Shown here piece by piece: positions 4,184 through 56,802 of a DNA stretch of 64,000 nucleotides. The notes below the pieces were generated by a model. The model made no database searches. It saw only the letters and a list, made by a program, of their open reading frames with translations, and was not told the origin of the DNA. The stretch is taken from NCBI RefSeq assembly GCF_001293525.1, contig NZ_BBYR01000006.1, positions 124,001 through 188,000 on the forward strand. The letters are read 5' to 3'. Origin of the DNA: Pseudideonella sakaiensis. Lineage in GTDB: Bacteria; Pseudomonadota; Gammaproteobacteria; Burkholderiales; Burkholderiaceae_C. Every line of letters begins with the position of its first letter. Position 1 is the stretch's first letter. A program made the translations under genes and the position numbers.

Positions 4184-4780
4184 ATGGACATCGTTGCACA
4201 CTCGTTGTGGGCCGGCCTGGGCGCGGTGGCTGCAGCGCGCCGCTGGCCAGTCAGTGCCGACCAGGTGCGCTCGGCCGTGGCGCTGGCCGCCCTGCCCGAC
4301 ATCGCTCACCTGATTCCCATCGCCCTCTGGGGACTGTTTGGAGACGGCTCATGGCAGGCGCTCCAGGGCTATGCGTTCGCGACGCCGGGTGCCGAGCCCT
4401 GGTTGCCCACCGGAGTGCAGGCCTGGTCGCATACGCTGCACTGCGTGATGCACAGCGCCGTCGTCGCCTCTGTCGTTACGATGCTGGTTTGGTTTCGATG
4501 GCGATGGCTGCTGGTACCGCTGGCCGGCTGGTGGTCGCACATCGTGATCGACGTCTTCACGCATTCGAGCGAGTACTACCCGTCGCCGGTGTTCTATCCG
4601 ATCACCGACCGCGGATTCGACGGCATCGCCTGGCCCGCGCCGTGGTTCATGGCATTGAACTACGCGGCGCTCGGCATCGCAGGCCTGTGGCTGTTTCGTT
4701 CCTCGCGCACGCGCGAGGCGTCATGTCCCGACTCTGGGAACGTTGATCCAGTGCAAGGACCGGCCAAGCCGAAGCAATGA
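4184..4780 (+). CDS. YdjM/DUF457-like membrane protein
   Basis: 198 residues with about four hydrophobic segments, so an inner-membrane protein. Conserved polar motifs lie within or near the membrane: PDIAHL, HTLHCVMHS and a GWWSHIVIDVFTHS segment. This resembles the YdjM/DUF457 group of predicted membrane-bound metal-dependent hydrolases; the assignment is from pattern, not from a search. A ribosome site (GGAGA) precedes the ATG 12 bases after the DUF302 gene. The last codons overlap the next gene (ATGA). Substrate and function are unknown. Confidence 0.7.
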   Translation: MDIVAHSLWAGLGAVAAARRWPVSADQVRSAVALAALPDIAHLIPIALWGLFGDGSWQALQGYAFATPGAEPWLPTGVQAWSHTLHCVMHSAVVASVVTMLVWFRWRWLLVPLAGWWSHIVIDVFTHSSEYYPSPVFYPITDRGFDGIAWPAPWFMALNYAALGIAGLWLFRSSRTREASCPDSGNVDPVQGPAKPKQ

Positions 4781-5247
4781 CATTGAGCAGATCGTTGTTC
4801 GTGCAGCCCATGCCACTCTTCACGCGCATCCGCACCCGCCGACACACCGCCATCGTGATGCTCGGCGCGTGGATGCTGGCCTTGCTGGTCGGCATTGCCA
4901 GCGCGTGCGCGTCCGGCAGGTCTGACTCGTCGCATGCCAGCGACGCGCGGCAGCCGGTCCTGGCCGGGCATGACCACGACGCCCACGCGTCGACCGGCTC
5001 CGAACGGGCTGGCGGCGCCGACGGCTCACGCCCGCTCAAGCCGGCGTGCCAGAAGTTCTGCGACGACGAAGCCACGACGGTCGTCAAGCACGACAAGACC
5101 CTCAAGGTCACTCCCATGGCAAGCTCGACCGCGGCAGTGGTCTGGTGGTTGCCGACCTCCGCGGCTTGGCCCATGCCAACCCGCCTGGGCGCTGAGCCTC
5201 CTCCAGAGGCGCCGCTCACCATGCGATTCATGCGCTTGACCATCTAG
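4777..5247 (+). CDS. Small secreted/anchored protein with CxxFC motif, copper-cluster type
   Basis: 156 residues of no family I can name. One N-terminal hydrophobic segment (about residues 26-45) ends in IASACAS and could be a signal peptide or anchor. Then come a His/Asp-rich stretch (AGHDHDAH), a PACQKFCDDE motif, and a proline-rich C terminus. The layout closely parallels the protein at 31159-31575, which has the same order: Arg-rich N terminus, hydrophobic segment ending in NACA, His-rich linker, CLDFCE and a proline-rich tail. Small Cys/His proteins of this design recur in copper and zinc efflux clusters. The start overlaps the previous stop; an internal ATG at 4810 is an alternative. 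Confidence 0.6.
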   Translation: MTLSRSLFVQPMPLFTRIRTRRHTAIVMLGAWMLALLVGIASACASGRSDSSHASDARQPVLAGHDHDAHASTGSERAGGADGSRPLKPACQKFCDDEATTVVKHDKTLKVTPMASSTAAVVWWLPTSAAWPMPTRLGAEPPPEAPLTMRFMRLTI

Positions 5248-22114: not shown

Positions 22115-23266
22115 TCAGTGCATGTCTTGTGGTTCGGCCAGGGTCGCGGTAGAAAGGTCGTCAACGGAAATCAGCGGTACGCGCCGCAGTTCGCTCGTCA
22201 CGGCCGTGAGGCACTGCCGGCTCGCTGCGTGGACGGTGAACAGCGGTTGGCCCCGGTGCGCTCGCTCGCCGATCCGGGCATGCAGCACGACGCCGGCGCC
22301 GGCTCCTTGCGGTGCGCCAGCCAGCACCGCGACGCGCCGCACATGCGCGCCGTCCAGCGCCCTCACGTGGCCAGCGTGTTCGGCCGTGATGGTTTCGGCG
22401 ATCGGTGCCAGCGTCGGCTCACGCATCCCACCCTGAGCCTCGCACAGGGCCTGGAAGCGCGCCCATGCAGCGCCGCTGTCGAGCAGTCGCCAGGCGTCGA
22501 GCTCGCCATGTCCGGGTCGGCTCGCGCCGCACATCTCGAGCAACTGGCCGGCTTCGGCCAGCGCGTGCATGCGCAGGTCGACCGGCGCCGCCGCGGCGCC
22601 GCGCAGCACGGCCAACACGTCCAGCGCCTCGGGTGCCGGACCGATGCCCAGACCCACCGGCTGCGTGCCGGCCAAACGGGCGACGCGAACCTGCACGCCG
22701 ACCGCCGCGCCCACGGCCCTGAACAGTGCTTGCAGGCGATGGAAGCGTTCGTCGTCGGGCACGCCGGTACCCCGTCCGACCGCCACGTTGACGAGCAGGC
22801 TCCCCACGCCGGCAGCCACCCGGCGCGACAGTGCCGACGCCACGAGGCGGGCGTCATCCGCCGTGGGACTCCACGGCACGTTCGTTGCCACGCCCGCGGC
22901 GTCCGCGCGGGCGACGCACACACCCACGCGCGAGGTGATACTGGCCGCAGTCGCACGATCGAGTTCCACCCCGGTCAGCGTCGCCATCGCGTCGGCGCTG
23001 CTCCAAGCCCCCGTGGCAGACCGCAGCGAGAAGTGCGGCATCGTCGCGCCCGCTGCAGCCACCATCGCTGCAACGATCGGCGTCGTCCGGTGTCCGGGGA
23101 TCCGGTCCAGCCCGTGCCGATCGACGACGCGGGTCGACTCCCAGACAAGTGCCCGACTCGCTTCGGCCGTCCAGACGCGTGCAAGGGCGATGGCCTGCCG
23201 GACTGCCGGGTCGCTGTACGGCTCCGAAGTCCAGAGCTCGTGGGTCGGGCCGGCGGCTTGGTTCAT
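22115..23266 (-). CDS. Degenerate thymidine/AMP phosphorylase-family protein
   Basis: 383 residues, against about 430-510 for the family. Alignment by eye fits the pyrimidine-nucleoside/AMP phosphorylase fold: ARVWTAEASRALVWE, then VVDRH, then IVAAMVAAAGATMP, ATLTGVELD, LSRRVAAGVGSLLVNVAVGRG and PVDLRMHAL. Key residues are changed. The phosphate-binding KHSTGG is RHGLDR, the SGRGLGHTGGT loop is LRSATGAWSSA, and the SKK near the base site is SRR. The N-terminal helical domain is shortened. It may be a pseudoenzyme or have another substrate. The start overlaps the MerR stop (ATGA), so the two are coupled. Confidence 0.65.
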   Translation of the reverse strand: MNQAAGPTHELWTSEPYSDPAVRQAIALARVWTAEASRALVWESTRVVDRHGLDRIPGHRTTPIVAAMVAAAGATMPHFSLRSATGAWSSADAMATLTGVELDRATAASITSRVGVCVARADAAGVATNVPWSPTADDARLVASALSRRVAAGVGSLLVNVAVGRGTGVPDDERFHRLQALFRAVGAAVGVQVRVARLAGTQPVGLGIGPAPEALDVLAVLRGAAAAPVDLRMHALAEAGQLLEMCGASRPGHGELDAWRLLDSGAAWARFQALCEAQGGMREPTLAPIAETITAEHAGHVRALDGAHVRRVAVLAGAPQGAGAGVVLHARIGERAHRGQPLFTVHAASRQCLTAVTSELRRVPLISVDDLSTATLAEPQDMH

Positions 23267-23727
23267 CCCTCGCCCCTTCGCCGCGCGGAGGCTCCGCGGT
23301 CGCGTCGCGCGGCCGAAGCCGGGTCCTGCGCGAACCCCTCGATGAGGCCACACACCGAGTGGCCGTCGGGTACGCCGTCGGGACGCCGCTTCCAGTCGGC
23401 CACCGCCCGCTGCATGCGCCGATGCAGGCGCAGGGCGGCGTCCAGCTGACGACCCTGCTCCGCGAGGCGCTGGTCGAGCAAGGTGCGCGCACGCGGACAC
23501 GGCAGTTCGCCACGCTGCCCCATCTCGACGAGTTCGCCAGCGTCCCTGAGCGTAAAACCCAGCGCCAACGCGCCGCGGATGAAGCGCACGCGCGCGACGC
23601 CGCGCTCCGAGAACGTGCGATAGCCGTTCTCGGTCCGACCGTCCGCCTCCACCAGGCCGACCCGCAGATAGTGGCGCAGCGTGTCGGTGGTCACGCCGGC
23701 CTGCCGCGCGCATTCGATCAATCGCAT
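23263..23727 (-). CDS. MerR-family transcriptional regulator
   Basis: 154 residues. The N-terminal winged helix (LIECARQAGVTTDTLRHYLRVGLV, then RTENGYRTFSE) is typical of MerR. A dimerisation coiled coil (ARTLLDQRLAEQGRQLDAALRLHRRMQRAV) follows. Cys residues occur in GELPCPRAR and HSVCGLIEG, the positions used by metal-responsive MerR proteins, but there is no full CueR-type CX7C loop. The inducer is unknown. The ATG at 23727 has GGAGG at a good distance. A MerR-type promoter candidate lies at 23773-23803. It probably controls itself and the genes downstream on the minus strand. Confidence 0.88.
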   Translation of the reverse strand: MRLIECARQAGVTTDTLRHYLRVGLVEADGRTENGYRTFSERGVARVRFIRGALALGFTLRDAGELVEMGQRGELPCPRARTLLDQRLAEQGRQLDAALRLHRRMQRAVADWKRRPDGVPDGHSVCGLIEGFAQDPASAARRDRGASARRRGEG

Positions 23728-23834: not shown

Positions 23835-25019
23835 TCAGATCCGCTCGAGCGCCAGCGCAACGGCCTGGCCGCCGCCGATGCACAGCGTCACGATGCCGCG
23901 GCGCAGGCCGTCGCGCTGCATCGCGTGCAGCAGCCGGGTGGTGAGGACCGCTCCGGTCGCTCCGATCGGGTGCCCGTGCGCGATGGCGCCGCCCTCGACA
24001 TTGACCACGTCCTCGGCGAAACCGAGTTCGCGCTGGCAGGCCAGCACGATGGCCGCGAAGGCCTCGTTGATCTCGACCCGGTCGACATCCCCGATCGTCC
24101 AGCCGGCACGCTCGAGCGCCTGGCGCACGGCCGGCAGCGGCCCGAGCCCGAAGAAGTTCGGGTCCACGGCGCCGATGCCGAAAGCCGCCAGGCGCGCCTG
24201 CGGCTGCATCCCCTGGCGCTCGGCCCAGCCGCGCTCGGCCACCACCATCGCGGCCGCGCCACTGTTGAGGCCTGGCGCATTGCCCGCGGTGATCGTGCCC
24301 TCCTTGCGGAAGGCGGGCTTGAGCCGCGCCAGCGACTCCACCGTGGTGTCGGGCCGGTTGTGCTCGTCGCGCGCGAACGGCACCGGCCCCTTGCGACCGG
24401 GCACCTGCAGGGTGACGATCTCGGCGTCGAACCGGCCCGCCGCCTGCGCGGCCGAGAACGCCTGCTGGGAGCGCAGCGCCCAGCGGTCCTGGTCCTCCCG
24501 GGAAATGCCGCAACGGATCACCAGGTCCTCGGTGTGCCAGCCGGCATGCTGCCCGCTGACGGCGTCGTGCAGTCCGTCCAGCAGCATGCTGTCGAACAGC
24601 GTCACGTCGCCCATGCGCGCGCCCCAGCGCCCCTGCGGCAGCAGGTAGGGCGCGCGGTCCATGTTCTCCATGCCGCCGGCCACCGCGCAGTCGATCATGC
24701 CGGCGGCCACCTCGAGCGCTGCGCTGACAAGAGCTTGCGCCCCGGATCCGCAGACGCGGTTGACCGTCAGCGCGGGCACTTCGACGGGCAGCCCCGCGGC
24801 GAGACCCGCCTGGCGGGCCGGGTTCATCCGGTTGCCGGCCTGGATGACGTTGCCCATCACGAGCGACTGCACGTGGGACCCGGCAAGGCCGTTGCGCAGA
24901 AGCGTCTCGCGGATCACTGCGGCCCCGAGCTCGCTGGCGGGTACTTCCTTGAGCGCACCGCCGTAGGTTCCGATGGGGGTGCGGACGGCGCCGCAGAGGA
25001 CGACTTCGTGGGTAGCCAT
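23835..25019 (-). CDS. Acetyl-CoA acetyltransferase (thiolase)
   Basis: 394 residues, cytosolic. It condenses or cleaves acetyl-CoA and acetoacetyl-CoA. The acylated Cys is in NRVCGSGAQAL, the active-site His in GGAIAHGHPIGATGA, and the second Cys in CIGGGQAVAL, with EINEAFA present. The start follows AAAGGAGAGATCC. It sits 19 bases downstream of the AckA-PduL gene, which makes acetyl-CoA, so the pair fits carbon overflow into acetoacetyl-CoA (polyhydroxybutyrate or ketogenic routes). Whether it is biosynthetic (PhaA/AtoB) or degradative cannot be decided. Confidence 0.93.
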   Translation of the reverse strand: MATHEVVLCGAVRTPIGTYGGALKEVPASELGAAVIRETLLRNGLAGSHVQSLVMGNVIQAGNRMNPARQAGLAAGLPVEVPALTVNRVCGSGAQALVSAALEVAAGMIDCAVAGGMENMDRAPYLLPQGRWGARMGDVTLFDSMLLDGLHDAVSGQHAGWHTEDLVIRCGISREDQDRWALRSQQAFSAAQAAGRFDAEIVTLQVPGRKGPVPFARDEHNRPDTTVESLARLKPAFRKEGTITAGNAPGLNSGAAAMVVAERGWAERQGMQPQARLAAFGIGAVDPNFFGLGPLPAVRQALERAGWTIGDVDRVEINEAFAAIVLACQRELGFAEDVVNVEGGAIAHGHPIGATGAVLTTRLLHAMQRDGLRRGIVTLCIGGGQAVALALERI

Positions 25020-25038: not shown

Positions 25039-26811
25039 TCAATGCGCGTGCAGTAACGCGTGGTTCTGGTGCTCGGCCTCGGCGCAGACGCGGGCCGTGC
25101 ACTCGCTTCGCTGCAGCACGCCCTCGCCGGCGCCTTGCAGCCCGGCCGCGTTGGCTTCGTCGGTATCGAGGTGCAGCTCGAGCGCCGCGCCGTCGTCGAC
25201 ACGCAGGGCGACATGGCGCAGTACCGTGCCGCGCGGCGTGTCGAGCGCGACCTCGATCTCGCCACGGTCTCCGACGCCGAGCCGCCGTGCATCGGCGCTC
25301 GTCAGGTGCAGGTGGCGGCGCGCGACGATCAAACCCGTGCTGCGCAAGGTCCCGGCCGGCCCCGCCAGCGTGACCTCGGCGCTGCCCGCGAGATCGCCGG
25401 ACAGGCGCAGCGGCGCCTCTATGCCCAGCCGAATGGCCTCGGTGCGGCTGACCTCGATCTGGTTGGCCGCTCGGCAGGGCCCGACGACGCGGACGCGCTC
25501 GATCCGGCCGCGCTCGCCAATCACGGAAACCGTTTCCTCGGCGGCGAAGAAGCCGGGCTGGCTGAGCGGTTGCAGCACGCGCAGCGCGTGGCCGGCGCCG
25601 AACAGGGTCTCGACGGCGGCCTGCGTGAGGTGCACGTGGTGGGCCGAGATCGCCACCGGCATCGAGAAGTCCTGCCGCGACGCGGGGTGCTCGGCGTGGC
25701 GCAGCATCGCCGCGGTCTCGCGGGCGATGACCCACTGCTCGCGCGAGCGCACCGCCAGCACCGCCACCTGCGAGCGCGGTGCCTGCAGTTCGGCGACCGC
25801 GGCACCGGACGCGCCGAAGGATTCGTTGCGGTCCTCGTCGAGGCGCACGCCGAGGAACTCCAGGCCCTCCAGGATGCGCCGGCGCAGCGCGGCAGAGTTC
25901 TCGCCGGCTCCGCCGGTGAAGGCGACGGCGTCGCAGCCGCCCATCGCCGCGGCGTAGGCGCCGATGTACTTGCGCACACGGTAGGCGTGAACCTGCAGCG
26001 CCGTCTGGGCGCCGGCATGCCCCTGGCGCGCCCGGGCCTCGATCTCGCGCAGGTCCGGGCCGATGCCCGACAGCGCCTTCAATCCGCTGTCGTGGTACAG
26101 CGCCGCTTCGATCTGCGCCGGGTCGAGTCCCAGCGTCCGCGCGACGAACGCCGGCACGCCGGGGTCCAGATCCCCACTGCGCGTGCCCATCACGAGCCCC
26201 TCCAGCGCCGTCATCCCCATCGAGGTGTCGATGGACCGGCCGCGGTCAATCGCGCAGACGCTGGCACCGTTGCCGAGGTGGCAGCTGACGATGCGCAGGT
26301 CCTCAGGAGCCCGTTCCAGCGCACCGCTCACCGCTTCGAGCACGTGCCGATGCGACAGGCCATGAAAGCCGTAGCGGCGCACGCCGGCGTCGCGCCAGGC
26401 CTGCGGCACCGCATAGAGCGACGCCTGCTCGGGCATGCCGGCATGGAACGCGGTGTCGAACACTGCCACCTGCGGCAGGCCAGGCCAGCGCTCGCGCGCC
26501 AGGCGGATGCCGGCCAGCGCGACCGGGTTGTGCTGGGGCGCCAGCGGGGCGGCCTGATCGATCTCGCGCTCGGTGTCCGCGTCGACAAGCACGGCTTCAC
26601 TCAGGCGGGGTCCGCCGTGCGCGACACGATGGCCGACGGCATCGATCGCCGGCATGCCAGCATCCCGCAGTCGCCGCTCGATCTCGTCGAACGCCGCCAC
26701 ATCGACCGCGGGGCGTTCGATCGTCGCCTCCATCAGCGGCGTGGCCGACACCGGGTCGAAGATGCCGAACTTGAGCGTCGCGCTGCCGGCGTTGAGTGAG
26801 AGGATGTGCAT
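25039..26811 (-). CDS. Fused acetate kinase-PduL-type phosphotransacylase
   Basis: 590 residues with two enzymes in one chain. Residues 1 to about 378 are acetate kinase (N-terminal LNAGSATLKFGIF, VGHRVAHGG, FDTAFHAGMP, GFHGLSHRHV, HLGNGASVCAI, FTGGAGENSA), which makes ATP from acetyl-phosphate. Residues 384 to about 575 are PduL-type phosphotransacylase (MPVAISAHHVHLT, LSQPGFFAAEETV, GPCRAANQIEVSRTEA, RRHLHLTSADA, HLDTDEANAAG), which moves the acetyl group to CoA. The His residues that bind zinc in PduL are kept (HHVHL, RHLHL). The protein could send acetyl-phosphate from phosphoketolase to ATP plus acetate or to acetyl-CoA. I chose ATG 26811; a TTG at 26832 overlapping the FabI stop is possible. 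Confidence 0.92.
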   Translation of the reverse strand: MHILSLNAGSATLKFGIFDPVSATPLMEATIERPAVDVAAFDEIERRLRDAGMPAIDAVGHRVAHGGPRLSEAVLVDADTEREIDQAAPLAPQHNPVALAGIRLARERWPGLPQVAVFDTAFHAGMPEQASLYAVPQAWRDAGVRRYGFHGLSHRHVLEAVSGALERAPEDLRIVSCHLGNGASVCAIDRGRSIDTSMGMTALEGLVMGTRSGDLDPGVPAFVARTLGLDPAQIEAALYHDSGLKALSGIGPDLREIEARARQGHAGAQTALQVHAYRVRKYIGAYAAAMGGCDAVAFTGGAGENSAALRRRILEGLEFLGVRLDEDRNESFGASGAAVAELQAPRSQVAVLAVRSREQWVIARETAAMLRHAEHPASRQDFSMPVAISAHHVHLTQAAVETLFGAGHALRVLQPLSQPGFFAAEETVSVIGERGRIERVRVVGPCRAANQIEVSRTEAIRLGIEAPLRLSGDLAGSAEVTLAGPAGTLRSTGLIVARRHLHLTSADARRLGVGDRGEIEVALDTPRGTVLRHVALRVDDGAALELHLDTDEANAAGLQGAGEGVLQRSECTARVCAEAEHQNHALLHAH

Positions 26812-26828
26812 GGCCCTGCCCGATGGCT

Positions 26829-27608
26829 TCAATGGAACACCATGCCTTCGACATGGAAGCCGGCATCGACGTGCACGATTTCGCCGGTGATCGCCGATGC
26901 GTAGGGACTGGCCAGCAGCAGTGCCACGCGGCCGACTTCGCAGCCGTCCACGGTGCGCCGCTGGGGCGAGCGGCGCGCGGCCTCGTCGAGCAGCTCGTCG
27001 AAGTGGGTGATGCCGGAGGCCGCGCGCGTGCGCACCGGGCCCGCGGAAATGGCGTTGACGCGGATGCCGGCTGGCCCGAGCTCGTGCGCGAGATAGCGCA
27101 CGGAGGCCTCGAGCGCGGCCTTCGCAGGCCCCATCACGTTGTAGTGCTCCACGACCTTCTCGGCACCGTAGTAGCTGACCGTGGTGAGGCTGCCGCCATC
27201 GCGCATCAGCGGCTCGGCCAGCTTCGCCATGCGGATGAAGGAGTGGCAGGACACCAGCATCGCCTCGGCGAACCCGGCGCCCGAGCAGTCGGTGAGGCGG
27301 CCCTGCAGGTCTTCCTTGCGCGCCGACGCGATCGAGTGGAAGACGAAGTCGAGCTTCCCCCAGCGGTCACGCAGCGCGTCGAAGACCGTTTCCAGTTGCC
27401 CCTCCTGCAGCACGTTGCACTGCAGCAGCTGCGCCTGCACCTCCTCCGCGAGCGGCGCGACGAAGGGCCGGGCCTTCTCGTTGTAGTAGGTCATGGCCAG
27501 CTCGGCGCCGGCATTGCGGAAGTGCCGCGCCGCGGACCAGGCCAGGCTGTCGGCGTTTGCCACGCCGACCACGAGGCCTCTGCGGCCCGCCAGATCGATC
27601 ACTTCCAT
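26829..27608 (-). CDS. fabI: Enoyl-[acyl-carrier-protein] reductase, FabI family
   Basis: 259 residues, a short-chain dehydrogenase. It reduces trans-2-enoyl-ACP with NADH in fatty acid synthesis. GRRGLVVGVANADSLAW is the FabI-type cofactor motif, and the catalytic Tyr-x6-Lys appears in YNVMGPAKAALE, followed by GIRVNAISAGPVRT. AAGGAGG lies upstream of the ATG. It sits in the operon with acetate kinase and DUF3141, an arrangement seen in other Proteobacteria. It is therefore likely an extra, condition-specific FabI that may act on short enoyl-CoA/ACP as an electron sink (inference). Confidence 0.92.
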   Translation of the reverse strand: MEVIDLAGRRGLVVGVANADSLAWSAARHFRNAGAELAMTYYNEKARPFVAPLAEEVQAQLLQCNVLQEGQLETVFDALRDRWGKLDFVFHSIASARKEDLQGRLTDCSGAGFAEAMLVSCHSFIRMAKLAEPLMRDGGSLTTVSYYGAEKVVEHYNVMGPAKAALEASVRYLAHELGPAGIRVNAISAGPVRTRAASGITHFDELLDEAARRSPQRRTVDGCEVGRVALLLASPYASAITGEIVHVDAGFHVEGMVFH

Positions 27609-27648
27609 GAAGTCCTCCTTGTCCGGTCGATGCAAAGCCCGCGGGCGG

Positions 27649-27861
27649 TCAGCGAGGGCCGTCGCCACCGCTGTCGGCGCGGACCACGAGGTACAGCAGT
27701 ACGACGCACAGCCCGAGCAGCCCGTGCAGCCCCCAACCGAGCACATGGGCCCGGTGCTCCAGCACGAGCAGTAACAGCGCGACGCCAGCGAAGATCCAGA
27801 AGATCCATATCCGCCAGGCGCGGCCTGATTCAGTGCCGGTCTGCTTCTTCGGAGCGGTCAT
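27649..27861 (-). CDS. Small two-helix membrane protein
   Basis: 70 residues, unrecognised. A basic N terminus precedes two hydrophobic helices (about 17-34 and 42-60) joined by HRAHVLG. It lies between the periplasmic protein and fabI with gaps of 10 and 40 bases. By position it is part of the DUF3141 operon. Confidence 0.65.
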   Translation of the reverse strand: MTAPKKQTGTESGRAWRIWIFWIFAGVALLLLVLEHRAHVLGWGLHGLLGLCVVLLYLVVRADSGGDGPR

Positions 27862-27871
27862 GGCCTGTCCT

Positions 27872-28360
27872 TCAGCGCTCGTTGCGGTGCGGTGACCACG
27901 CCTGGACCGCAAACTCGATCTCGTCGGTGCGCTGCGGCAGCCGCACCCAGACCCGGAAGCGGTACGGACCTTCCTTGGCGACGCCGAAGACCTGTCCGTA
28001 GCTGGCCTGGTCGTTGACCTTCATCGGCAGCAGGTACTTCGGCGGCTCGTCGACGATGCCGGCTTCGCTGAGCTGCGCGCGCACAACGGCGTCCTCGATG
28101 CGACGGCCAGTCGCGCTGTCGTAGAGCGCCACGACGAGGTGGTGCACCTGGCCGCCGCCCTTGGGTGGGCCGCCGTGCAGCTCGGCCAGCGCGTGCTTGT
28201 CCGCCACGACCGCGGCCGGCACGAGCCCCCAGTAGAGGGTGACGCCGGACCGCTCCATCCGGCTTTGGGCCAGCGCCGGGCTCAGCATCGCGACCAGCAG
28301 CAACAGCCACATGGTGGCCGCAAGACGCCGGCATGTCTTTGGCAGCAGGATGGTTTTCAT
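27872..28360 (-). CDS. Periplasmic protein of unknown function
   Basis: 162 residues. A Tat-independent signal peptide (basic start, LLLLVAMLSPALAQ) is followed by a beta-rich domain. Distinctive blocks are TLYWGLVPAAVV, GGPPKGGGQVHHLVVALYD, PPKYLLPMKVND and PYRFRVWVRLP. I cannot name the family; the fold pattern looks Ig/cupredoxin-like without a clear copper site, though HH in GQVHHLV and Met in LLPM are potential ligands. The ATG at 28360 has GGAG upstream. It lies 31 bases after the DUF3141 gene. Confidence 0.7.
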   Translation of the reverse strand: MKTILLPKTCRRLAATMWLLLLVAMLSPALAQSRMERSGVTLYWGLVPAAVVADKHALAELHGGPPKGGGQVHHLVVALYDSATGRRIEDAVVRAQLSEAGIVDEPPKYLLPMKVNDQASYGQVFGVAKEGPYRFRVWVRLPQRTDEIEFAVQAWSPHRNER

Positions 28361-28391
28361 GGTGGGCTCCTCGTGACGGCCGGTCGGCCGG

Positions 28392-30068
28392 TCAGCGGGC
28401 ATAGAGCTGCTGGAACACCACCTCGGCCCACAGGTCGCGGCTCGTGCGCCACGACTCCCAGGCCTGGGCGCACGCGTCCGCGCCGACGCGCTCCAACTGG
28501 TACCAGGGGTTGGCCGTGCGATCCGGGTCGTGTGCGCCCCACTGGTCGAGCCACTGCTGCGTCCACGGCAGCCAGGCCAGGGCCGGCGTCGCTTTCTCGG
28601 ACCAGATCTGCCGGCTGACCCGCATCGGATGCAGTTCGCGCATCAGGCGCGCCGACTCGGGCGTGACCGCCATGCGGACCCACGGCGAGACCCATTGCGC
28701 ATAGGCACGCTCGGCGGCCTCGGACAGCGCCTGCACCTTGTCGAATCCAGCCGGGTTGGCGTCGAACGGCAGGTCCTCCAGGCGACGTGGTTCGAAGCGG
28801 GCCGCGGTGGCGCCGTCGCCCGTGGCGGCGTCGTCGAGAACCATCTCGTAGAGGCCGGGCGCAAGGTCCTGGATCGTTCCGGCGTGGTGCAGGATGGCGC
28901 GATGCTCGCGCCGCGCCACGCCCGCCGACACGAAGATGCCGAGGTGGCCCACCTGCTTGTGCAGCAGGTAGACGACACGCTGGCCGGCAGCCACCAGGTC
29001 CTCGGTCGTGGCAAACACTTCCTTCAGCCAGCCCAGCGCCTGGTGCGGCGGCGTGATGTTGTCGCCGTAGGAGCTGAAGATCACCAGCGGCGCCCCGATG
29101 CGCTTGAGATCCGCACGGCAATGGCCGTCGACCACGACCTCCCCGTCCTCGAGACGGTTGCCGACGAACAGCTCACCGGCGATGGCCAGCATCTCGTCGC
29201 CGGCCAACTGGTAGAAGCCGTTCCACCAGCGCTCGAACTCCAGGAAGCGGTCGCGCTCGGCCTCCGGCTGCGCAAAGAGCGTGTCGTACTTCCGGAACAC
29301 GCCCTCGGGCCGCAACGCCTCGAAGTTCTGCACCAGCCAGGCGCCATCGAAGCGGCCGTTGCCCAGGTCCGACATCCAGTGCGCCGGCCAGACGCCGCCG
29401 GTGAAACCACCGAGCAGGCGCATCGGGTTGATGCCGCGCTCGCCCGCCCAGTACGACAGCGGCGAGCCGTTCAGCACCGCCAGCGCCGCCCGGTGCTCGC
29501 AATGCGACAGGGCCAGCGTGATCGCCCAGCCGCCCTGGCAGTTTCCGTAGACGATCGGCGCCTTGCCGCGATGGCGCTTGGCAACGACGTCGATGAAGGC
29601 CGCCAGCGTCTGCACGACGGCCCCCATCGTCTGTCCTTCGACCGGCTCCGGGTCGAAGACGACGAAGTAGACCGGGTGGCCTTCGAGCAGCGCCATGCCG
29701 ACTTCCGAATCGCGCTTGAAGCCGCCGATGCCGGGGCCATGCCCGGCACGCGGGTCAACCACGATCACCGGTGCGGCGCCCTTGCGCACGTGCTTCTCCA
29801 GCGCGTCGGTGCCGCAGCGCGTGACGCGCAGCAGCCGGTAGTTCGACGGCGGATCGAGATCCCGCCCGTCCGCCACCGGCTCGGACTCGAAGTGCAGCAG
29901 GGGCGGCATGCCCGCGGCCTCGTGCGCACTCATGTTGGCTGCACGCTCGCGCAGCGAGTCTGCCGCCGCGGTGGCGCGCCACAGTGCATCCAGCCAATAG
30001 CGGAAGGCCAGGCGACCGGGCGCGAGGCCCGCAGAATCGGCCGCAACGGCGGTGTTCGGTGTCGGCAT
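28392..30068 (-). CDS. DUF3141 alpha/beta-hydrolase (PHB-synthase-like)
   Basis: 558 residues of the DUF3141 family, distantly like class I/III polyhydroxyalkanoate synthases. The nucleophile box is YGNCQGGWA, where Cys stands in the position used by PhaC. VIVVDPRAGHGPGIGGFK and HLGIFVSAGVARREH complete the hydrolase core; the Asp would be in FSSYGDNITPP and the His in KQVGHLG. The substrate is unknown; hydroxyacyl-CoA is plausible given the thiolase and FabI downstream. Genes of this family often accompany ackA/fabI in low-oxygen operons (established co-occurrence as I recall it, not searched). Confidence 0.85.
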   Translation of the reverse strand: MPTPNTAVAADSAGLAPGRLAFRYWLDALWRATAAADSLRERAANMSAHEAAGMPPLLHFESEPVADGRDLDPPSNYRLLRVTRCGTDALEKHVRKGAAPVIVVDPRAGHGPGIGGFKRDSEVGMALLEGHPVYFVVFDPEPVEGQTMGAVVQTLAAFIDVVAKRHRGKAPIVYGNCQGGWAITLALSHCEHRAALAVLNGSPLSYWAGERGINPMRLLGGFTGGVWPAHWMSDLGNGRFDGAWLVQNFEALRPEGVFRKYDTLFAQPEAERDRFLEFERWWNGFYQLAGDEMLAIAGELFVGNRLEDGEVVVDGHCRADLKRIGAPLVIFSSYGDNITPPHQALGWLKEVFATTEDLVAAGQRVVYLLHKQVGHLGIFVSAGVARREHRAILHHAGTIQDLAPGLYEMVLDDAATGDGATAARFEPRRLEDLPFDANPAGFDKVQALSEAAERAYAQWVSPWVRMAVTPESARLMRELHPMRVSRQIWSEKATPALAWLPWTQQWLDQWGAHDPDRTANPWYQLERVGADACAQAWESWRTSRDLWAEVVFQQLYAR

Positions 30069-30074
30069 GACGTC

Positions 30075-30380
30075 TCAACCGCAGCAGCAACCGCCGCGAC
30101 CCTTCGTGGCCGCACCGGCACCACTGCCACAGCCGCCGGTCGGATGCTGATGCGCGGCTTGCGCGCCGGTCGCAGCGTCGGCTTGATAGCCGGCCTCGCC
30201 CAGCGCGGCGACCAGTTCCGGCACCTGGTGCGCGGCATGCTCGCCGCGGACACGCGCGATGCCGCTGCCGAGATCGACCTCGACGTCCTGCACGCCCGGG
30301 ACGCGCTTGAGCGCCTTGGTGACCGACGCGACGCAGGACCCGCAGGTCATGCCGTCGACTTTGAGTTCAGTGGTTTGCAT
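30075..30380 (-). CDS. HMA-domain copper chaperone-like protein with Cys-rich tail
   Basis: 101 residues. Residues 1-68 form a heavy-metal-associated domain with the CxxC copper site in DGMTCGSCVASV. The C-terminal tail is His then Gly/Cys-rich, ending GGCCCG, unlike ordinary CopZ. The tail adds further thiols that may bind Cu(I). The gene is six bases upstream of DUF3141, linking copper delivery to the metabolic operon. It is a paralogue of CopZ at 54839-55096, which ends in LCCGSCH. Confidence 0.88.
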   Translation of the reverse strand: MQTTELKVDGMTCGSCVASVTKALKRVPGVQDVEVDLGSGIARVRGEHAAHQVPELVAALGEAGYQADAATGAQAAHQHPTGGCGSGAGAATKGRGGCCCG

Positions 30381-30398
30381 GTTGGGACTCCTTGGGTT

Positions 30399-30695
30399 TC
30401 AGTGCTGGTGGCCACCCTGGCCACCGGGGGGAAGCTGGCGCGCGTCGTCCTTGGGCTTCGTCTCCGACCCGCCGCCATGTCCACCGTGGCCACCATGCCC
30501 GCCGTGCCCGAACAGGTGCATCAGCGGGCAGGCCAGCAGGATCAGGAATGGCAGCAGTTGCCCGAGGTGCGCGTTGTGGCGGAAGAACATCCAGGCGACT
30601 GCGGCAGCCAGACCGATCCACAGCACCCATTGATTGATGCGGGACCAGTTCGGGCCGGACGGGCCGCCGTTGCCGTGTTCATGGGAGTGGTTCAT
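30399..30695 (-). CDS. DUF2933-type small membrane protein
   Basis: 98 residues. A His-rich start (MNHSHEHGN) precedes one or two hydrophobic helices (WVLWIGLAAAVAWMFF and LLPFLILLACPLMHLF). The C terminus carries a repeated GHGG motif and a His tail. The CPLMHLFGHGGH block is the DUF2933 signature, common in copper and silver clusters. Cys, Met and His near the second helix could hold copper. It lies 18 bases from the HMA gene. Confidence 0.8.
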   Translation of the reverse strand: MNHSHEHGNGGPSGPNWSRINQWVLWIGLAAAVAWMFFRHNAHLGQLLPFLILLACPLMHLFGHGGHGGHGGHGGGSETKPKDDARQLPPGGQGGHQH

Positions 30696-30726
30696 GGAAG
30701 ATCTCCTGGCTGCGTTGATGCGTCGG

Positions 30727-31017
30727 TCACTGGTTCTTGTGGAACTTCGCGTGGTCGTGCACGGGCTTGGTCCTGGCCTTGGACTTGGCGCCCGATGCCG
30801 CTTCGGCTGGCGCACAGGGCATGGACCTGGCCGAAGGCGCATTGCGCTCGGCGCCGTGGTCATGGCGCTTCATCGCGCCGGCATTGCAGTCCATGGGCAT
30901 CGGCACAGAAGCCGCGGCAGCGGCAGCCGGGTCGGCCGCGGGACGTTCCTGTGCCACCGCGGCAGAAGCGCCGACCGCGAGGGCGACAAGGGACGTCAGA
31001 AGGAAGGGGGTACGCAT
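30727..31017 (-). CDS. Small periplasmic protein with Met/His/Cys motifs
   Basis: 96 residues. A signal peptide (LLTSLVALAVGASAAVAQ) is followed by an Ala-rich linker, VPMPMDCNAGAMKRHDHG and a basic, His-containing tail. AGGAG precedes the ATG at 31017. No family recognised. The MPMDC and HDH groups suggest copper binding. By position it is in the FNR-box operon. Confidence 0.65.
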   Translation of the reverse strand: MRTPFLLTSLVALAVGASAAVAQERPAADPAAAAAASVPMPMDCNAGAMKRHDHGAERNAPSARSMPCAPAEAASGAKSKARTKPVHDHAKFHKNQ

Positions 31018-31125
31018 GACAAGACTCCTGATGTAAGGAACGACACGGAACGCAAACACGAACGGGGAATGCCGCTGCCTCACAGCGCCGCTGCGGGCGC
31101 GATGGCGAACGGAAGGCAGGGCGCG

Positions 31126-31144
31126 ACGCGGATCAGATCCGCGT
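31126..31144 (-). terminator. Perfect 19-bp hairpin after the CxxFC protein gene
   Basis: ACGCGGATC and GATCCGCGT flank a single central base. It begins 15 bases after the stop of the gene at 31159-31575 and precedes the gene at 31017. There is no T-run, so it may be a processing or attenuation hairpin that lowers expression of downstream genes. Confidence 0.45.
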
Positions 31145-31158
31145 GGCGTCCGGGGGTG

Positions 31159-31575
31159 TCAAAGCGCGAGGCGCTGGAACGCGATGCGCGGCGGGGGCCC
31201 GCCGGGCAGGGTCGGCGAGTCGACCATCAGGCGACCCACTGCGGGATCGGCCTGGCCGGCTACCGAAAGCGTGTGGGAGACCGGCAGCGCGAAACCCAGC
31301 GCAGCCAAGCCATCACCGACCACCTTCAACTGCGGAGCACCGAGAGAGGGCTTCTCGCAGAAGTCCAGGCAGTTGACCTTGGCGAGGTCACCTTGCTCGT
31401 CGCCGTGTTGGTGTTTCTGAACAGCGTCGGCGGCAACAGGCGTCGCCGCATCGGAGCGGTGATGCGCCGGCTCGCCCAGAGCGCAGGCGTTGGCCACACC
31501 CATCGCGAGGCCGAACAGCCACACGAGCAGCACCTGGGCTGCCCATCGGCGGAGACGTCGGCGATCGCTGAACAT
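31159..31575 (-). CDS. Small CxxFC protein, copper-cluster type (first gene of FNR-box operon)
   Basis: 138 residues, family not named. It has an Arg-rich N terminus (FSDRRRLRRW), one hydrophobic segment ending in GVANACALGE, a His-containing linker (KHQHGDEQGD), a VNCLDFCEKPS motif, and a proline-rich tail ending PPRIAFQRLAL. It is a parallel of the protein at 4777-5247. The DUF2946-like small proteins of metal clusters share this layout. No strong ribosome site precedes the ATG at 31575; a longer frame starts upstream but would include the promoter. Confidence 0.6.
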   Translation of the reverse strand: MFSDRRRLRRWAAQVLLVWLFGLAMGVANACALGEPAHHRSDAATPVAADAVQKHQHGDEQGDLAKVNCLDFCEKPSLGAPQLKVVGDGLAALGFALPVSHTLSVAGQADPAVGRLMVDSPTLPGGPPPRIAFQRLAL

Positions 31576-31606
31576 GATGACGCGGGGCGAAACAAGGCAG
31601 ATTCGT

Positions 31607-31655
31607 TGAATCGAGAATAGGCGCGGACTCGCCAACGCCGTTTGATCGGCATCAA
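31607..31655 (-). promoter_or_regulatory. FNR/FixK/Dnr-type box with class II promoter spacing
   Basis: TTGAT-N4-ATCAA at 31642-31655 is a perfect match to the CRP/FNR-family (FNR, ANR, FixK) consensus. On the minus strand TATTCT at 31619-31614 looks like a -10 box, its centre 32 bases from the box centre. That places the box near -41.5, as in class II FNR promoters, with a start near 31607. The first gene starts at 31575. Oxygen-responsive control of the copper/DUF3141/fabI/ackA-pduL/thiolase run follows by inference. Confidence 0.75.
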
Positions 31656-56442: not shown

Positions 56443-56802
56443 GTGCGTCGCTTGATCCTTCTGTTTTTGTTGTCCGTCCTGCCTCTCCAGTTTGCCTGGG
56501 GTGCGGCAGCGACGTACTGCGGCCACGAGCAGGCTCCGAGTTCAGGGCACTTCGGGCACCACAGCCATCAGCACCAGGCGAAGGCCGAGTCCGATTCAGG
56601 GTCCGCTGCCAAGAAGGCCTCGGTGCTTGCAGACGACCTTGACTGTGCGTTTTGTCACCTGGGTTGCGTGCAACCCTGTGCCAGTCAGACCGCTTCGGTT
56701 GCTGCGATCCGGTCCTCTGTCCTGGCGCTGCCCACGCTTCTTCTTCCGGATTCCGGTCGCCCTGGCCGGATCGAACGCCCCAAATGGCTCCTCGCCGCCT
56801 GA
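56443..56802 (+). CDS. czcI: CzcI-like small periplasmic protein
   Basis: 119 residues from a GTG start. It has a signal peptide (LILLFLLSVLPLQFAWGAA), YCGHEQ, a His-rich linker (HFGHHSHQHQ), DDLDCAFCHLGCVQPC and a proline-containing tail. This matches CzcI, the small protein upstream of czcCBA in Cupriavidus that is thought to tune the efflux operon. It precedes czcC by 99 bases that can fold into a stem-loop. Confidence 0.85.
   Translation: MRRLILLFLLSVLPLQFAWGAAATYCGHEQAPSSGHFGHHSHQHQAKAESDSGSAAKKASVLADDLDCAFCHLGCVQPCASQTASVAAIRSSVLALPTLLLPDSGRPGRIERPKWLLAA

Follow-up and report, generated by a model that had tools for sequence, protein, structure and literature searches.

In a 64,000-nucleotide (nt) stretch of the Pseudideonella sakaiensis genome (the window; contig NZ_BBYR01000006.1, positions 124,001 to 188,000), a run of ten minus-strand genes, here numbered 1 to 10 from the promoter onwards, combines copper-binding proteins with enzymes of acetyl-phosphate and fatty-acid metabolism. 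We propose, with a probability of roughly 55%, that these genes form an operon with a class II promoter activated by FNR and with a leader resembling CutF and CruR at its head, so that oxygen and copper would jointly gate genes for copper protection and for carbon and lipid upkeep. Comparison of the sequences across genomes supports the promoter and its geometry, the conservation of both, the gene order and the anatomy of the leader. The promoter and operon had already been claimed in a sequence-only reading of the window, and these claims hold more strongly than first stated.

The site ahead of gene 1 (TTGATGCCGATCAA) is a perfect TTGAT-N4-ATCAA palindrome followed by the –10 element TATTCT, as described earlier. 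The spacer of 22 nt lies within the 21-23 nt of class II promoters and puts the centre of the site at about –41.5, with a predicted transcription start near 31607. Exactly two perfect sites occur in the 6.14-Mb genome, the second one ahead of a gene-1 paralogue that is followed by a Met/His protein. For a wider survey we took 50 members of the gene-1 family, forming 34 clusters at 60% identity, and scored the best site within 200 nt upstream. Fifteen clusters have a perfect site, 14 score 9/10, four 8/10 and one 7/10; a site of 9-10/10 is therefore common to 29 of the 34 clusters, which answers the call of the sequence-only reading for a search in orthologous loci. By comparison, 9/10 or better is scored by only 1.0% of the 2592 control windows taken at these loci, and among DUF2946 leaders, our second control, one of 28 has a site of at least 9. 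A TAnnnT element stands exactly 21 nt after the site in 17 clusters and 22 nt after it in six (23/34 together), while other offsets from 10 to 39 nt yield two occurrences, both at 39. Judged against the controls, the site and its class II geometry are a conserved property of the gene-1 family.

Family matches confirm the identities first proposed for the DUF2933, HMA, DUF3141, FabI, AckA-PduL and thiolase genes. Genes 2-10 are separated by 6-40 nt, and the sole wide gap is the 141 nt between genes 1 and 2. Inside the run from gene 1 to gene 10 we found no sigma-70-like consensus promoter and, on the minus strand, no terminator-like site, the feature that had been named in advance as evidence against a single unit. 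Two terminator-like matches were obtained (3.0 expected by chance): one is a weak stem past the downstream end of the run (22186-22172), the other lies at 25005 on the plus strand. An intrinsic terminator between genes 1 and 2 was considered and rejected, as there is a strong stem but no T-run. The best explanation is an operon spanning 31575 to at least 23835. The gene run is as originally listed, but the interval given for it (25039-31655) excludes the thiolase gene, which is in turn followed by a MerR gene (Table 1). Given the weak likeness of gene 7 to DUF2933, the operon may hold two proteins of this family.

Gene order in other genomes strengthens the case for one unit of copper and carbon genes. 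Gene 1 has no stretch conserved enough for a profile scan, so close relatives were compared through DUF3141. The order of genes 1-10 is retained in G267, G389 and G183 (in G183 without a thiolase match), and that of genes 1-9 in Roseateles puraquae (G307) at 47-88% identity, without PduL; locus L120 also keeps the order of genes 1-10 or 1-9. Hydrogenophaga and Diaphorobacter have a reduced form consisting of the box, gene 1, DUF2933, HMA, DUF3141, AckA, MerR and CFA synthase. The AckA-PduL fusion occurs in close relatives, on Polaromonas and Paracoccus plasmids and partly in Sinorhizobium, and AckA alone, without the fusion, in G105, G301, G307 and Acidovorax. In gamma- and betaproteobacterial islands of Pseudomonas, Stenotrophomonas and Achromobacter, DUF3141 is 83% identical to that of the window and gene 1 is a short decayed remnant, while TTGATCAAGATCAA-22 nt-TATGCT is retained ahead of DUF2933-HMA-DUF3141-AckA. 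As the promoter is kept where gene 1 has decayed, it probably serves the whole operon, the downstream genes as well as gene 1. In a set of 80 DUF3141 loci from alpha-, beta- and gammaproteobacteria, the 2 kb ahead of DUF3141 contain 22 sites in all, a density of ~1.4 per 10 kb; the remainder of these loci has roughly 0.2 per 10 kb. A site near DUF3141 but no gene 1 is seen in Trinickia, in Microvirga and on a Roseibium plasmid. The DUF2933-HMA-DUF3141-AckA-MerR-CFA island recurs in almost the same form at the Pseudomonas, Stenotrophomonas and Achromobacter loci (L123, L125, L127), which makes horizontal transfer probable.

Gene 1 has no Pfam or NCBIfam match and belongs to an unnamed family. 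We detected six copies in its own genome, and 63 of 401 sampled genomes of the host's family contain relatives. Thirty aligned members have in common a hydrophobic N-terminal export signal, a His-rich middle and the residues R9, W19, A30, C31, C69, C73 and P128; the marks of gene 1 itself are C31, C69xxxC73, P128 and a C-terminus reading ...IAFQRLAL before the stop. The alignment places the invariant proline exactly 10 residues before the stop in 29 of the 30 members, and inspection by eye does so in the remaining one (L098); proline and CxxxC lie 51-56 residues apart. Among the 34 cluster representatives, 31 end in P-x6-R-L-x-x, and the median gap to the next gene is 161 nt; that gene usually encodes an exported Met/His-rich protein or DUF2933. 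C exceeds G by 0.082 in the 3′ end and gap, compared with 0.007 in the gene body (31/32 members), and the same measure gives –0.002 for 30 other genes of the window (p about 1e-7). A Shine-Dalgarno sequence is absent before gene 1 (start 31575) and usually absent in the family. The stem at 31151-31119, whose sequence is kept in six orthologues, begins 7 nt after the stop.

This anatomy recalls two known leaders. CutF is the copper-sensing leader of the cutFOG operon of Rhodobacter capsulatus (PMC9973294), with a CxxxC and a C-terminal proline motif, and its CutF-like proteins are sorted there into 29 clusters. Set beside the rules given there for CutF-like proteins, gene 1 has 138 residues (<150), an N-terminal signal recognised by eye, the end GGPPPRIAFQRLAL with PP in its last 15 residues, and a same-strand gene at 141 nt (<1000); a CxxxC in the mature part, another CutF-like feature, is present as C69/C73. 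Both are small exported proteins that head a copper operon, with a CxxxC, a C-terminal proline motif and a gap before the next gene that, for gene 1, may be structured. Gene 1 differs in its lack of detected DUF2946 homology, its C-terminal motif PPxxIxFxRLxL, its 141-nt gap and its place behind an FNR-type promoter at the head of both copper and carbon genes. FNR or oxygen control finds no mention in the main text of PMC9973294, and a literature search returned nothing linking CutF/CruR leaders to FNR, an absence that is not proof. CruR of Bordetella pertussis (DUF2946; PMC9426467) has a Cys pair at a fixed distance to RAPP, a 162-nt gap with a C>G bubble, and Rho. Likenesses to gene 1 are the length of about 140 residues, the Cys pair, the conserved Cys-to-Pro distance, the long gap of ~160 nt and, over the 3′ end and this gap, a C>G bubble, a trait associated with Rho; the differences are that gene 1 has CxxxC rather than CxxC, lacks RAPP and is missed by the Pfam model, and that the operon behind CruR is one for a TonB-dependent transporter, which copper represses (PMC9426467). 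By analogy, gene 1 probably works like these copper-sensing leaders, and it would then add a copper gate to oxygen control.

Several points weigh against this assignment. Gene 1 has no match to DUF2946 (PF11162) and four of 30 relatives match at E values of at least 0.13; an hhalign comparison of gene 1 with DUF2946 gives a probability of 2.8%; and in place of RAPP there is PPxxIAFLRLAL. Pfam and hhalign together rule out membership of DUF2946 and, with an anatomy that is alike but neither homology nor RAPP, we do not file gene 1 in that family. In CutF-like leaders a stem-loop masks the ribosome-binding site of the following gene; the strong stem behind gene 1 has no covariation support among the six orthologues, Shine-Dalgarno pairing varies between orthologues, and some transcripts might stop in the 141-nt gap independently of copper. 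Gene 1 could instead be a plain periplasmic copper-binding protein in an FNR-type operon, with no leader role and no copper gate, as its export signal, His-rich stretch, three invariant cysteines, dispensability in some islands and missing homology to DUF2946 would allow. We consider this somewhat unlikely, because a C-terminus fixed relative to the stop, a long, uniform and C-rich gap and the usual absence of a Shine-Dalgarno sequence are unexpected for an ordinary periplasmic protein.

Turning to the regulator, the relaxed pattern TTGAY-N4-RTCAA has 13 matches in the genome against two for the reversed control pattern. To judge from the adjacent open reading frames (ORFs), identified by reading, these sites precede ccoN, fnr (with hemN divergent), a small cytochrome c gene and a third gene-1 paralogue, which is divergent from a MerR gene. 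The genome encodes an FNR with CSNCNLRELC, which supplies the [4Fe-4S] cysteines in the arrangement CxxCxxxxxC, and with an ETVSR recognition helix. With further sites of this type ahead of ccoN and fnr/hemN, the protein that reads the site is likely to be FNR. Family-wide site and spacing, the motif shared with ccoN and fnr/hemN, and an encoded FNR with iron-sulphur cysteines together bear out the FNR-type class II promoter of the sequence-only reading. On the opposite side of the balance, a second CRP/FNR-family protein (L115, G000:C3:8938-9180), whose helix is of the E--SR type and which contains a CAGC stretch of the CxxC kind, could read the same site, and DNR/NNR and FixK proteins recognise the same half-sites as FNR. 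A reader other than FNR, whether nitric oxide-sensing or of another kind, is nevertheless unlikely, given that the motif also stands ahead of ccoN and of fnr itself, both classical FNR targets.

What the operon is for was first read as copper supply to oxidases at low oxygen, in which FNR would co-induce copper delivery proteins with the cbb3 oxidase. The cbb3 oxidase does require copper, and a site of this type lies ahead of ccoN in the genome. However, neither the operon nor its conserved neighbours contain an oxidase or oxidase-assembly gene, and elsewhere gene-1 modules adjoin multicopper oxidase, ICMT and copper P-type ATPase genes on plasmid resistance islands. For example, Sphaerotilus plasmid pSna507_unt12 carries gene 1, a Met-rich protein, DUF2933, ICMT, a multicopper oxidase and a P-type ATPase in succession. 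A large block of metal-resistance genes also lies in the window itself. Supply to oxidases is thus not supported, and we regard it as quite unlikely. In view of the copper-resistance contexts, and because Cu(I) is more harmful in the absence of oxygen, the purpose is better explained as protecting the cell from copper when oxygen is low. Fermentation via acetyl phosphate, also part of the sequence-only reading, is plausible from the enzymes. On Polaromonas pPNAP02 a copper operon runs on into FabI, AckA-PduL and DUF3141.

The chance explanation, that the palindrome is fortuitous and genes 2-10 are driven from elsewhere, might appeal to the weak evidence of a single site in 64 kb taken by itself (0.27 matches expected from the mean of shuffles, at most one mismatch allowed), but it is strongly disfavoured by the family-wide conservation of site and spacing against controls and by a site kept after the loss of gene 1.

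Parts of this arrangement have parallels. AckA-PduL, FabI, the thiolase and DUF3141 suggest energy conservation through acetyl phosphate and turnover of lipid or polyhydroxyalkanoate (PHA), as in the lxa locus of Burkholderia cenocepacia, which combines low-oxygen expression with phosphotransacetylase and a polyhydroxybutyrate-type enzyme (PMC6127331). The lxa entries consulted include universal stress proteins and no copper genes; among genes 1-10 there are no universal stress proteins. In Bradyrhizobium diazoefficiens the bsl7992 DUF2933-ICMT operon places DUF2933 behind TTGATCTGCGTCAA at –59 and is strongly FixK2-dependent in microoxia; it differs in its alphaproteobacterial regulator and in having no leader and no described carbon genes (PMC9104804). 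In Alteromonas, DUF2933 likewise accompanies copper export, in MerR-CopA-cupredoxin-DUF2933-ICMT operons, which differ in having a MerR gene at the head, no described FNR-type site and no carbon enzymes (PMC8478169).

In the FNR-activated operon with a copper-reading leader that we favour, FNR would activate transcription from the class II promoter at low oxygen. The nascent exported gene-1 chain would sense copper through its CxxxC, and the fixed C-terminal Pro...Arg-Leu motif together with the C-rich gap would set how far transcription or translation extends into the downstream genes. The Met/His protein, DUF2933 and the HMA chaperone would bind copper and protect the export side, and the acetyl-phosphate, fatty-acid and PHA-related enzymes would maintain energy and membranes without oxygen. 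In this scheme we infer FNR as the binder, the copper gate and its direction, and protection as the purpose. To our knowledge, most bacterial copper switches sense copper alone; an oxygen-sensor promoter coupled to a copper-reading leader would, if true, bring the two signals together on a single transcript. A function would also follow for the unnamed gene-1 family, as would a reason for acetate and fatty-acid genes to move together with copper-resistance islands. More tentatively, as a generalisation that may well prove too broad, nascent-chain copper leaders without detectable DUF2946 kinship could be tied to FNR-type promoters across Burkholderiales, with a joint oxygen-copper gate over copper defence and acetyl-phosphate/fatty-acid metabolism on mobile islands.

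Table 1. Coordinates of the promoter elements, the ten genes of the run and the gene that follows it (window numbering)
Feature	Position	Strand	Remarks
FNR-type site	31655-31642	minus	perfect TTGAT-N4-ATCAA; centre about –41.5
–10 element TATTCT	31619-31614	minus	22-nt spacer from FNR-type site
Gene 1, 138-residue exported Cys/His protein, proposed copper-sensing leader	31159-31575	minus	no Pfam/NCBIfam match
Gap between genes 1 and 2	31018-31158	minus	141 nt, C-rich; stem 31151-31119
Gene 2, Met/His-rich exported protein	30727-31017	minus	
Gene 3, DUF2933 membrane protein	30399-30695	minus	E 2.2e-17
Gene 4, HMA / CopZ-like chaperone with His/Cys tail	30075-30380	minus	
Gene 5, DUF3141, PHA-synthase-like alpha/beta hydrolase	28392-30068	minus	
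Gene 6, exported protein, family not assigned	27872-28360	minus	
Gene 7, small membrane protein, weakly DUF2933-like	27649-27861	minus	19.8 bits, cut-off 21
Gene 8, FabI, PRK07533 type	26829-27608	minus	
Gene 9, acetate kinase-PduL (PTAC) fusion	25039-26811	minus	
Gene 10, BktB-like thiolase	23835-25019	minus	
MerR-family regulator	23263-23727	minus	107 nt past gene 10

Elsewhere in the window, a further member of the gene-1 family is encoded at 4777-5247 (plus strand), with CQKFC, an end reading RFMRLTI before the stop, and a degenerate TTGATCCAGTGCAA upstream. Positions 35848-63887 form a large copper and heavy-metal block with cytochrome c, cupredoxin and DUF411 proteins; inspection of its ORFs adds a multicopper oxidase, a copper ATPase, CzcCBA-like efflux, a CDF transporter and two two-component systems. 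Within this block, a CzcI-like small exported protein (56443-56802, plus strand) stands ahead of the CzcCBA-like genes; it matches DUF2946 at 16.4 bits, below the cut-off, and is possibly a second type of leader in the window. A thymidine-phosphorylase-like protein, in which PYNP_C is the only domain recognised, is encoded at 22115-23266 (minus strand), and a Variovorax plasmid likewise carries thymidine phosphorylase genes together with DUF3141.

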